Assembly: GCA_017632345.1 (NCBI GenBank)
Contig: JAGBRL010000035.1
Location: forward strand, 1 to 64,000
DNA: 64,000 nucleotides
Source: Paludibacteraceae bacterium
GTDB lineage: Bacteria > Bacteroidota > Bacteroidia > Bacteroidales > Paludibacteraceae
Reading direction: 5' to 3'
The notes under the pieces were generated by a model. It ran no database searches, was not told the DNA's origin, and was given only the letters and a program-made list of their open reading frames with translations. Below are positions 4,622 to 8,840 of the stretch, one piece after another. Positions within the stretch are counted from its first letter, which is position 1, and every line of letters begins with the position of its first letter. The translations under genes and the position numbers were made by a program.

Positions 4622-7600
4622 TTATTTCACGTATTCCTGCCAGCTCATGATGTTGATGTCGCTCAACTCTTTCGAACAGAAAGCCTGAATAAACGCACCT
4701 GCAAGACGACCGTTTGTAAGCAACGGAATATTATGGTCAATTGCAGCACGGCGAATCTTGTAACCATTTGTAAGCTCGCGCTTCGTGTGGTCCTTAGGTA
4801 TGTTTATCACCAAATCAACTTCGTGTTCAGCCATCAGCTTCATAATGTCCTGACCATTTGCTTCGTCAGGCCAGCAAACTGCGGTAGCCTCAACACCGTT
4901 TTCCTTCAAGAACTTCTGAGTTCCTGTTGTAGCGTAAATCTTAACACCCTTGTTCTGCAACATCTTGCAAGGCTCAAGCAAGTCAACCTTGCCCTTAACA
5001 TCGCCAGAAGAGACAAGCACGCCCTTCTTCGCCGGAGTGTAGCCCACAGAGATCAAAGAGTTAAGCAAAGCCTCGTCGAAGTCAACGCCAAGACAGCCAA
5101 CCTCACCAGTAGAAGACATATCCACACCAAGCACAGGGTCAGCCTTGTGCAAACGAGCGAACGAGAACTGAGACGCCTTTACACCCACATGGTCAACATC
5201 GTAAGTAGAAGAGTCAACCTTTTCCACTGGCACATCAAGCATAATCTTAGTAGCCGTTTCGATAAAGTTGCGTTTAAGCACCTTAGACACAAACGGGAAG
5301 CTACGAGAAGCGCGCAAGTTACACTCGATAACCTTCACATCATTATTCTTAGCCAAGAACTGGATATTGAAAGGTCCGCTGATATTAAGTTCCTTAGCAA
5401 TCTTGCTACTGATCTGCTTAATTCTGCGAGCCGTAGCCAAATAAATCTTCTGAGCAGGGAACACCAAAGTAGCGTCGCCAGAGTGAACGCCGGCAAACTC
5501 AACGTGTTCAGATATAGCGTATTCGATAACCTCGCCATTCTTCGCAACCGCATCAAACTCTATTTCCTTAGCGTTCTGAAGGAACTCAGACACAACCACA
5601 GGGAATTCCTTAGACACTTTAGCCGCAGCCGAAAGGAAAGTAATCATCTGCTCCTTGTCGTAGCAAACGTTCATCGCAGCGCCCGAAAGCACGTAAGACG
5701 GACGAATAAGCACAGGGAAGCCAACCTTTTCGATGAACTGGTCAATCTCGTCCTGAGTTGTAAGCTCGCCCCAACGAGGCTGGTCTATACCAAGCTGGTC
5801 AAGCATAGCTGAGAACTTGTGGCGGTTTTCCGCACGGTCGATTGAAACTGGCGAAGTACCCAAGATAGGCACATTCTGACGATGCAGCTTCATCGCCAAG
5901 TTATTAGGAATCTGTCCGCCCACAGAAACAATCACACCCTTAGGCGACTCCAAGTCGATAATGTCAAGCACACGTTCGCAGCTCAACTCGTCGAAATAAA
6001 GGCGGTCGCACATATCATAGTCAGTAGATACCGTTTCAGGGTTGTAGTTGATCACCACCGACTTGTAACCAAGTCTGCGAGCCGTCTGAGTAGCATTTAC
6101 AGAGCACCAGTCAAATTCCACAGACGAACCGATACGGTAAGCACCAGAGCCAAGCACAATCACAGTCTTGTCGTTACGATAATCGTAGCTCAAGCTGCTT
6201 TCGTCAGTTCCGTACGTCATGTACAAGTAGTTAGTCAGTTCCGGATGTTCAGAAGCGACAGTGTTTATGCGGCGCACAGCCGGCTTGATGTTAGCCTTCT
6301 TACGTGCATTGCGCACACGCAAAGTCTCCTTCTCCATATTTCCAGAAGGATTTTCCACACAACGCGCAATCTGGAAGTCCGAGAATCCGAGACGCTTAGC
6401 CTCCTTCAGCACATCAGCAGGAATATCTTCGATAGTCTTGAACCCTTTAAGAACATTAGCATAGTCCACAATATTCTTCAGTTTATTCAAGAACCAGACA
6501 TCAATCTTAGTAAGTTCTTCTATACGCTCAACGCTGTACCCTTTTTCAAGAGCCTGAGCGATGGCGAACACGCGCATGTCAGTAGGGTTTGCAAGTTCCT
6601 TGTCAAGGTCGTCAAACTCAACATCGTTGTTGCAGACAAAACCGTGCATTCCCTGTCCAATCATACGAAGCCCCTTCTGCATAATCTCTTCGAAAGACTT
6701 ACCGATAGACATAATTTCGCCGACCGACTTCATAGAAGAGCCGATTTGACGGTCAACGCCAGCGAACTTAGACAAGTCCCAGCGCGGAATCTTGGCGATG
6801 ATATAATCTACAGACGGAGCAACATAAGCCGAGTTAGGCGTTCCCATTTCGCCAATCTGGTCAAGCGAATATCCAAGAGCAAGCTTAGCGGCCACAAAAG
6901 CCAGCGGATAACCCGAAGCCTTAGAAGCCAAAGCCGAAGAACGGCTCAAGCGAGCGTTAATTTCAATGATTCTGTAATCGTTAGTCTGAGCGTTGAAAGC
7001 GTACTGAATATTACATTCACCCACGATACCGATATGGCGCACCACCTTCTTCGCAATATCCTGAAGCATAGTGATTTGCTCCTGAGACAAAGTGATGATA
7101 GGCGCAACCACGATACTTTCTCCAGTATGAATACCGAGCGGGTCGAAGTTTTCCATCGGCACAACAGTGAAGCAGTGGTCGTTTTTGTCACGTATAACCT
7201 CAAATTCGATTTCCTTCCAGCCCTTAAGAGACTCTTCCACAAGAATCTGCTTAGAGTGAGCAAGAGCGCTGTCGCACAATTCAACAAACTCTTTCTCGTC
7301 CTTACAGATACCCGATCCAAGACCGCCAAGCGCGTAAGCCGAGCGCACCATAACCGGGAAGCCAATCTTGCGAGCAGCCGCAAGTGCATCTTCCATAGAC
7401 TCAACAGCCTGAGAAACTGGCGTTTTAGCCTGAATTTCGTCAAGTTTCTTCACGAACAGGTCACGGTCTTCCGTAATCATGATAGCCTCAACAGAAGTGC
7501 CAAGCACCTTCACACCATACTTTTCAAGAATTCCGGAGGTATAAAGTTCCGTACCGCAGTTAAGAGCCGTCTGTCCGCCGAAAGCCAAAAGGATAGCATC

Positions 7601-7843
7601 CGGCTTCTCCTTTTTGATAATCTCTTCCACGAAGAACGGAGTGATAGGCAAGAAGTAAACCTTGTCCGCAACCCCTTCAGACGTTTGGATTGTTGCGATA
7701 TTTGGGTTAATCAACACAGTGCTGATGCCTTCTTCTCTCATAGCCTTCAACGCCTGCGAGCCTGAATAGTCAAATTCTCCTGCCTGCCCAATCTTGAGGG
7801 CCCCAGACCCTAACAAAAGAACTTTTTTTATACCTTCCAACAT
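4622..7843 (-). CDS. carB: Carbamoyl-phosphate synthase large subunit
   Basis: The 1073-residue protein is full length for CarB. It makes carbamoyl phosphate from bicarbonate, ATP and glutamine-derived ammonia for pyrimidine and arginine synthesis. The start MLEGIKKVLLLGSGALKIGQAGEFDYSG and the second GSGAYRIGSSVEFDWC (near 560) mark the duplicated ATP-grasp halves. ELTNGYKIRRAAIDHNIPLLTN near the C-terminus is the allosteric MGS-like domain. The small subunit gene carA is not next to it. A 5' leader of about 190 bases with a terminator hairpin precedes the gene, suggesting control by attenuation. Confidence 0.97.
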   Translation of the reverse strand: MLEGIKKVLLLGSGALKIGQAGEFDYSGSQALKAMREEGISTVLINPNIATIQTSEGVADKVYFLPITPFFVEEIIKKEKPDAILLAFGGQTALNCGTELYTSGILEKYGVKVLGTSVEAIMITEDRDLFVKKLDEIQAKTPVSQAVESMEDALAAARKIGFPVMVRSAYALGGLGSGICKDEKEFVELCDSALAHSKQILVEESLKGWKEIEFEVIRDKNDHCFTVVPMENFDPLGIHTGESIVVAPIITLSQEQITMLQDIAKKVVRHIGIVGECNIQYAFNAQTNDYRIIEINARLSRSSALASKASGYPLAFVAAKLALGYSLDQIGEMGTPNSAYVAPSVDYIIAKIPRWDLSKFAGVDRQIGSSMKSVGEIMSIGKSFEEIMQKGLRMIGQGMHGFVCNNDVEFDDLDKELANPTDMRVFAIAQALEKGYSVERIEELTKIDVWFLNKLKNIVDYANVLKGFKTIEDIPADVLKEAKRLGFSDFQIARCVENPSGNMEKETLRVRNARKKANIKPAVRRINTVASEHPELTNYLYMTYGTDESSLSYDYRNDKTVIVLGSGAYRIGSSVEFDWCSVNATQTARRLGYKSVVINYNPETVSTDYDMCDRLYFDELSCERVLDIIDLESPKGVIVSVGGQIPNNLAMKLHRQNVPILGTSPVSIDRAENRHKFSAMLDQLGIDQPRWGELTTQDEIDQFIEKVGFPVLIRPSYVLSGAAMNVCYDKEQMITFLSAAAKVSKEFPVVVSEFLQNAKEIEFDAVAKNGEVIEYAISEHVEFAGVHSGDATLVFPAQKIYLATARRIKQISSKIAKELNISGPFNIQFLAKNNDVKVIECNLRASRSFPFVSKVLKRNFIETATKIMLDVPVEKVDSSTYDVDHVGVKASQFSFARLHKADPVLGVDMSSTGEVGCLGVDFDEALLNSLISVGYTPAKKGVLVSSGDVKGKVDLLEPCKMLQNKGVKIYATTGTQKFLKENGVEATAVCWPDEANGQDIMKLMAEHEVDLVINIPKDHTKRELTNGYKIRRAAIDHNIPLLTNGRLAGAFIQAFCSKELSDINIMSWQEYVK

Positions 7844-7883: not shown

Positions 7884-7922
7884 AAAAAAAATGCGTTAGC
7901 TCAAAAAAGAAAGACTAACGCA
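7884..7922 (-). terminator. Terminator hairpin in the carB leader (attenuator candidate)
   Basis: On the minus strand an 8-bp stem (TGCGTTAG at 7915-7922 with CTAACGCA at 7892-7899) and a 15-base loop are followed at once by eight T residues (7884-7891). It ends 41 bases before the carB start codon and lies downstream of a -7 box. It would therefore stop transcripts that begin in the leader before they reach carB. Confidence 0.75.
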
Positions 7923-8040
7923 ATATTAAGAGAATATGAATCACAATGTCTCGTTTCCTTGACATCCCCGGCTGCCGCCAATATAGTTTTTATTAGATTC
8001 ATACCTGTTTTGCCCTTATGTTTAAAATTGTGCAAATGTA
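7923..8040 (-). promoter_or_regulatory. carB promoter and structured leader RNA
   Basis: A minus-strand -7 box TACATTTG lies at 8033-8040. Downstream, an 8-bp helix can form between GATTCATA (7996-8003, plus-strand text) and TATGAATC (7935-7942). It encloses a small GGC/GCC hairpin (7970-7979) and a second hairpin GACAT/ATGTC (7946-7965). This is a three-way-junction-like fold followed by the terminator at 7884-7922. It matches no riboswitch class I can recall. The 349-base gap between rnhA and carB contains nothing else recognisable. Confidence 0.5.
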
Positions 8041-8192
8041 CTATTTTTTTACGCAATAACAAAATATATCACGAAAATTCTTGCCCGAAAATTCAGATTG
8101 ACGCTAAAAAAGCAAAATCAGGAGCAAAATGGCACTCTGTTTGCAGAATGAAAGACAAATCTGCAGAGCGTCTTAGCCAAATCTGCCAGAAA

Positions 8193-8840
8193 TCATTTCC
8201 GTCCGAAATCGGCAGGAATCTCGCCCCAGCTCTTGGTGTCCCACTTCAGAATCTGTGTTGTGTAACTATTTTCCGCAAGCCACTTTTCCGCCCTCTCTAT
8301 CAAGACGAAGAGCTGCGCGTTACGGCTGTTGCGTTCCAGTTTCGTCTTGCACTTTTTCTGCTTCACCCACGAAATTGCATTTACGCTGTCTGAGTAGAGC
8401 GGCACATTTGAATTTTTCTGTTTCAGCAGAGCCAAACCGTGCACAAGAGCGAGAAACTCGCCGATGTTGTTTGTTCCGCACTCAAACGGGCCTATTCTGA
8501 ATATCTCGTTCCCGTTGCGCGTGTAAACGCCCCTGTACTCCACCCTACCCGGATTTCCGCTGCACGCCGCGTCCACCGCCAGCGACTCCAGCACCGGCTT
8601 GGAAGCGTTCCGCCCAATATCTGCAAGCGACCGGAGTTCGCCCAGCTTGCGCACTTTTCCAGACTGACCCACATAACCCTCATAACCCCTCTTATAGGCC
8701 ACATTGGCAAGCTCTTCATCTTCAAAACTCTTATACTTGGCGTCCGGATAGCCCGCTATCTGAGCCTTGCACGAATTCCAGTCCGTGTAAACACCCGGAT
8801 TATGACCATTCCACACAACGTAAAACTTACTTTTTGCCAT
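8193..8840 (-). CDS. rnhA: Ribonuclease H1 with N-terminal hybrid-binding domain
   Basis: The 215-residue protein removes RNA from RNA-DNA hybrids. Residues 1-50 (KFYVVWNGHNPGVYTDWNSC) are the small hybrid-binding domain found in eukaryotic RNase H1 and many Bacteroidota enzymes. The RNase HI fold follows, with catalytic residues in VDAACSGNPG (Asp), NNIGEFLAL (Glu), LYSDSVNAI (Asp) and the C-terminal ADFGRK (Asp). Its start codon overlaps the stop codon of the preceding argE gene (TAATG), so the two are translationally coupled. No carB co-transcription is expected, because a promoter-like box and a terminator lie between them. Confidence 0.93.
   Translation of the reverse strand: MAKSKFYVVWNGHNPGVYTDWNSCKAQIAGYPDAKYKSFEDEELANVAYKRGYEGYVGQSGKVRKLGELRSLADIGRNASKPVLESLAVDAACSGNPGRVEYRGVYTRNGNEIFRIGPFECGTNNIGEFLALVHGLALLKQKNSNVPLYSDSVNAISWVKQKKCKTKLERNSRNAQLFVLIERAEKWLAENSYTTQILKWDTKSWGEIPADFGRK

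Follow-up and report, generated by a model that had tools for sequence, protein, structure and literature searches.

A uORF-dependent transcription attenuator probably ties carB to pyrimidine supply in Bacteroidales

The leader that precedes carB on the minus strand of the window (the whole 64,000-nucleotide stretch that was analysed) is probably a ribosome-mediated transcription attenuator that tunes carB to pyrimidine supply and works like that of E. coli pyrBI. We have high confidence that this attenuator depends on an upstream leader ORF (uORF), and good, somewhat lower, confidence that it is linked to pyrimidines; that its sensor is the UTP-dependent slowing of RNA polymerase is a serious proposal to which we give slightly less than even weight.

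The original prediction described, in order before carB, a promoter box, a fold closed by an 8-bp helix and a strong terminator with eight T, and each of these is present on the minus strand (Table 1). To them we add a feature absent from that description, a 33-codon ORF (8002-7901) whose start lies in the 8-bp helix and whose end lies in the terminator loop. The T8 tract ends 40 nt upstream of the carB ATG at 7843. Leader and terminator together have a folding energy of -41.3 kcal/mol, compared with -28.6 ± 3.5 kcal/mol for dinucleotide shuffles (z -3.65). The terminator was not listed by a stock terminator scanner, probably because its loop exceeds the scanner limit of 8. A plus-strand promoter of sigma-70 type (7959-7987) was set aside, as Bacteroidota promoters have a different consensus.

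Table 1. Features of the carB leader, with positions in the window
Feature	Position	Strand	Basis and remarks
TTTTG, upstream (-33-like) promoter element	8060..8064	-	sequence; 19 nt spacing to the -7 box
TACATTTG, -7 promoter box, Bacteroidota type TAnnTTTG	8033..8040	-	same box type in 45 carB leaders
ACATA	8017..8021	-	here 19 nt upstream of the uORF ATG; in many relatives 11-21 nt inside the uORF
Leader ORF (uORF), 33 codons, MNLIKTILAAAGDVKETRHCDSYSLNIALVFLF, stop in the terminator loop	7901..8002	-	
P1 5' strand, UAUGAAUC, holds the uORF start codon	7996..8003	-	predicted fold; relatives' folds and swap test; eight Watson-Crick pairs (8003-7996 with 7942-7935) around the two hairpins
P1 3' strand, GAUUCAUA, beginning of the U-rich stretch	7935..7942	-	predicted fold; relatives' folds and swap test
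Hairpin enclosed by P1	7969..7980	-	predicted fold
Hairpin GAUGUC/GACAUU enclosed by P1	7945..7966	-	predicted fold
U-rich stretch ahead of the terminator, about half U	7923..7942	-	sequence; 53% U in relatives vs 29% in control terminators
Terminator hairpin, 8-bp stem UGCGUUAG/CUAACGCA (7922-7915 with 7899-7892), U-rich loop	7892..7922	-	
Terminator T8 tract	7884..7891	-	sequence
carB, carbamoyl-phosphate synthase large subunit, 1073 aa, gene held to be regulated	4622..7843	-	

The upstream regions read were those of carB orthologues in the same family and in named genomes of Bacteroidales. From these came 45 non-redundant carB leaders, whose selection required a promoter and a suitably spaced terminator but no ORF; more than one third of the carB loci read, for example in Muribaculaceae and Dysgonomonas, did not pass this leader scan. 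A uORF was scored when the first ATG after the promoter opened a frame that ran for 18 codons or more and stopped between -16 and +22 nt from the terminator stem. Such an ORF is found in 40/45 leaders, where 4.4 ± 2.0 are expected from dinucleotide shuffles; the stop window was picked after the first leaders had been inspected, which makes the exact odds optimistic, and the gap to chance is large. When leaders are weighted by sequence cluster, the uORF reaches the terminator in 28 of 30 clusters. The stops are tightly grouped relative to the stem, at -3 to -1 (median -2 nt), with a second group at +7 for which the TAG is supplied by the stem sequence GCGTTAG itself.

The GCGTT(A/G)G stem sequence is kept across genera far beyond pairing needs, its TAG being the uORF stop in one frame. 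At three loci (L113, L117 and L118) a GCGTTA-type terminator stands before carB directly after an apparent tRNA gene, judged as such from its sequence, and no leader ORF was seen.

A terminator in this position might merely end the mRNA of the upstream genes argE and rnhA, which lie on the same strand (rnhA ends at 8193), and have no regulatory role. We regard this as the least credible of the readings considered, since a promoter separates the terminator from rnhA, and since the leader persists where these genes do not: in the named relatives, which retain it, neither rnhA nor argE occurs within 3 kb of carB. The upstream neighbour of carB varies in both identity and strand, including genes on the opposite strand, and the leader is retained next to many different ones, which contradicts the possibility, raised in the original prediction against itself, that the terminator belongs to the argE-rnhA transcript.

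The uORF peptide differs between genera and is hardly conserved within them either. In close pairs of uORFs, the first, second and third codon positions change at rates of 0.129, 0.131 and 0.165, and the frame stays open. Because substitution is nearly equal at all codon positions, it appears from these comparisons that the act of translating the uORF, rather than the peptide product, is what matters. Control by an arrest peptide of the TnaC or SpeFL type, in which the nascent peptide would sense a metabolite and stall the ribosome at a stop codon over the terminator, would suit stop codons that fall within the stem or immediately ahead of it but not a peptide that varies in this way, and we consider it very improbable. 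We give equally little credence to amino-acid attenuation, by which the ribosome would stall at scarce Arg or Gln codons of the leader peptide: a leader ORF is present, and leader-type attenuators do exist in Bacteroidota (Bacteroid-trp, RF01692), but 15 of the 45 peptides have no Arg and 19 no Gln, RR occurs once overall, and there is no run of regulatory codons. Phe is common at the end of the peptide, but its codons are mostly UUU within the U-rich tract. The Arg and Gln signals that had been suggested for carB are hard to reconcile with these counts, at least as codon control.

Nor was any element complementary to the 5' arm of the terminator found beyond chance (5.9 nt, vs 6.5 nt in shuffles), so there is no classical antiterminator, a further point against stalling at Arg or Gln codons; the lack of one would be expected if the ribosome itself blocks the stem. 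In carB leaders the terminator stem stays paired where both of its strands have changed (pair 6 is either A-U or G-C). In addition, the uORF ATG lies in a purine-rich region that repeatedly pairs, in predicted folds, with the U-rich tract before the terminator, and each leader's own partner pairs more strongly than partners swapped between leaders (p ~1e-6). Support for P1 comes mainly from this swap test, there being few two-sided changes inside alignable clusters. As for the three-way-junction-like fold originally described, it is predicted in the window and is not conserved as such, though pairing that occludes the start codon recurs.

Even with the terminator removed, the carB leaders of most relatives fold into more structure than their shuffles do (mean z -1.7). 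Together with the recurrence of a three-way-like fold with a start-codon helix, this could point to a metabolite-binding riboswitch, whose three-way fold would bind a pyrimidine, arginine or glutamine-related ligand and control the terminator directly. We think this very unlikely: an Rfam search gave nothing credible at the gathering or a relaxed threshold, in agreement with the earlier impression that the leader fits no known riboswitch class; we found no alignable conserved core and no structure competing with the terminator stem; and the conserved ORF spanning the whole leader would go unexplained. The original designation of a ligand- or peptide-controlled attenuator thus holds for the attenuator and for its leader-ORF option, with the reservation that it is the position of the ORF (in 40/45) and not the peptide that is conserved, and little speaks positively for the riboswitch option. 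When the terminator-stem pattern was searched for elsewhere in 12 genomes, the only matches were in carB leaders. A DNA similarity search with the leader returned only short promoter-like fragments, so the leader is not findable by sequence.

The attenuator of E. coli pyrBI is UTP-sensitive, and a similar course of events can be envisaged at carB. RNA polymerase would start just downstream of TACATTTG and transcribe the leader ORF, the last codons and stop of which overlap the 5' part of the intrinsic terminator. A ribosome translating the uORF close behind the polymerase would mask the 5' arm of the terminator, leaving carB to be transcribed; in this window, it would pass through the terminator stem itself. 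Were the ribosome absent or late, the terminator would form and transcription would stop. At low UTP the polymerase would slow in the U-rich tract and the U-rich loop, and the ribosome would then have time both to load before P1 hides the uORF start codon and to reach the terminator. We infer from the arrangement of the leader that the uORF is translated, that its translation opposes termination, and that UTP, or another signal, is sensed.

The U content of the carB leaders is consistent with such a scheme. The U fraction is 0.53 in the 20 nt before the stem and 0.74 in the terminator loop, compared with 0.29 and 0.32, respectively, in 279 control terminators; in the trp attenuators of related bacteria, which served as a second control, the values are 0.24 and 0.21. 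The U-rich tract is also one strand of P1, and some of its U residues may be there for pairing.

The same arrangement is seen at pyrB. In the genome from which the window comes, pyrB (G000 contig C8, L147/L220) is preceded by a promoter, a 13-codon ORF (MNHFYDMVEFTLI, then a stop) and a terminator ending 12 nt before the gene, and many pyrB leaders in relatives have the same layout, with ORFs that reach the terminator. A frameshift separates two of them (L168 and L170), and in each the frame in use still extends to the terminator. At argF, on the other hand, a convincing leader terminator was found in 0/11 leaders examined; a terminator-like match at one argF locus (L231) was discarded, as it lay upstream of a start codon that the script had put too far upstream. 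The fused CarAB paralogue of some relatives has either a short leader without a terminator or another gene close upstream. Since the layout is shared with pyrB, while argF and the fused CarAB are without it, and since no PyrR was found above cut-off in the five genomes searched, pyrimidines are favoured as the signal, and of the signals first proposed for carB it is the pyrimidine one that fits. No leader terminator was seen at pyrE of the same genome.

The loops of the pyrB terminators are mostly not U-rich, which makes it unlikely that carB and pyrB share a U-tract sensor. One feature that the two sets of leaders do have in common, and that the U-tract model leaves unexplained, is the motif ACAUA. 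At the DNA level, ACATA occurs 11-21 nt after the uORF ATG in 19/45 carB leaders (for example L033, L040, L042, L053, L091, L107 and L121), where 1.0 is expected, or 9.2 against 0.6 expected after lineage weighting; since one set of carB leaders served both for the k-mer search that yielded the motif and for its test, this figure is optimistic. In the pyrB set, which comes closer to an independent check though its sequences had been viewed before the test, it occupies this interval in 8/12 uORFs (L144, L166, L168, L170, L174, L180, L222 and L223), against 0.45 expected. Among ordinary ORFs it does so in 2/306. The motif is found in all three reading frames and so is not a codon signal, and its distance is fixed to the ATG and not to the promoter.

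These observations raise the possibility that the sensor is instead a protein or small molecule that acts through ACAUA at the uORF initiation region, where its binding would block initiation and so let the terminator form. The enrichment of the motif at +11 to +21 in carB and pyrB uORFs and its rarity in ordinary ORFs, its occurrence in all frames, its anchoring to the ATG and its sharing by the two genes all argue for such a factor. However, we found no conserved structure around the motif, the motif is missing from this interval in about half of the carB leaders and in this genome's own carB and pyrB uORFs, and no candidate protein has come to light, PyrR not having been found. We therefore treat this alternative as less likely than not, and give slightly less weight again to the idea of a new Bacteroidales pyrimidine sensor that would act on uORF initiation via ACAUA and so control both the carB and the pyrB terminators.

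Among described systems, the uORF-dependent attenuator proposed here most closely calls to mind E. coli pyrBI. Comparison with the pyrL sequence reveals a shared order of promoter, leader ORF, U-rich tract (GCCGTTTTTCTTCCCGTTG in pyrL) and T8 terminator just before a pyrimidine gene; at pyrBI, too, blocking of the terminator is attributed to the ribosome, and no antiterminator is known there. In E. coli, tight coupling of ribosome and polymerase is needed to stop the pyrBI hairpin from forming (PMC5021804). The features that mark attenuation of the pyrBI type, namely the leader order, an ORF reaching the terminator, a U-rich tract (at carB) and a peptide whose sequence is apparently unimportant, are all found. 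The differences are also clear: the downstream gene is carB (in relatives also pyrB), the phylum is another and there is no sequence relation; the pyrBI leader ORF runs past the terminator, whereas the Bacteroidales carB uORF usually ends at the stem; and pairing joins the U-rich tract to the start region in Bacteroidales, where many leaders also carry ACAUA.

Other systems bear a more distant resemblance. According to a paper that cites the original work (PMC4997734), Pseudomonas aeruginosa carA has a leader peptide and pyrimidine control by possible attenuation; its likeness to our case is one of description, a leader peptide before a carbamoyl-phosphate synthase gene. The Bacteroid-trp leader (RF01692) is a leader-type attenuator with an intrinsic terminator and likewise belongs to Bacteroidales, but it precedes trp genes, lacks U enrichment both ahead of the stem and in the loop, and has no match to the carB leader. 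PyrR-dependent attenuators, as in the Bacillus pyr operon, likewise place leader terminators at pyrimidine genes; unlike them, the carB leader contains no Rfam PyrR element, in keeping with the PyrR search above. In the open-access literature we found no report of a carB leader attenuator in Bacteroidota, and in two transcriptome papers on Bacteroidota leader peptides come up only in general terms. Leader-ORF attenuation of pyrimidine genes is thus already known, while the Bacteroidales carB case appears to be undescribed. Bacteroidales are a dominant order in the gut and the control of their pyrimidine synthesis is poorly described; were carB and pyrB to share a leader-ORF attenuator, this would amount to a simple rule of regulation, testable in culturable species such as Bacteroides acidifaciens (L125) and Parabacteroides goldsteinii (L107).

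We also note some variation in the partners of carB. No carA, which encodes the glutaminase subunit, was found above the Pfam cut-off in the 99.7% complete genome G000, nor in G036, G143 or G096, and carB is present; in such genomes its product may rely on ammonia or on a partner protein not recognised as such. Other relatives have carB plus a fused CarA-CarB. Among the named loci, carA lies directly downstream of carB in three MAGs only (L066, L070 and L074).
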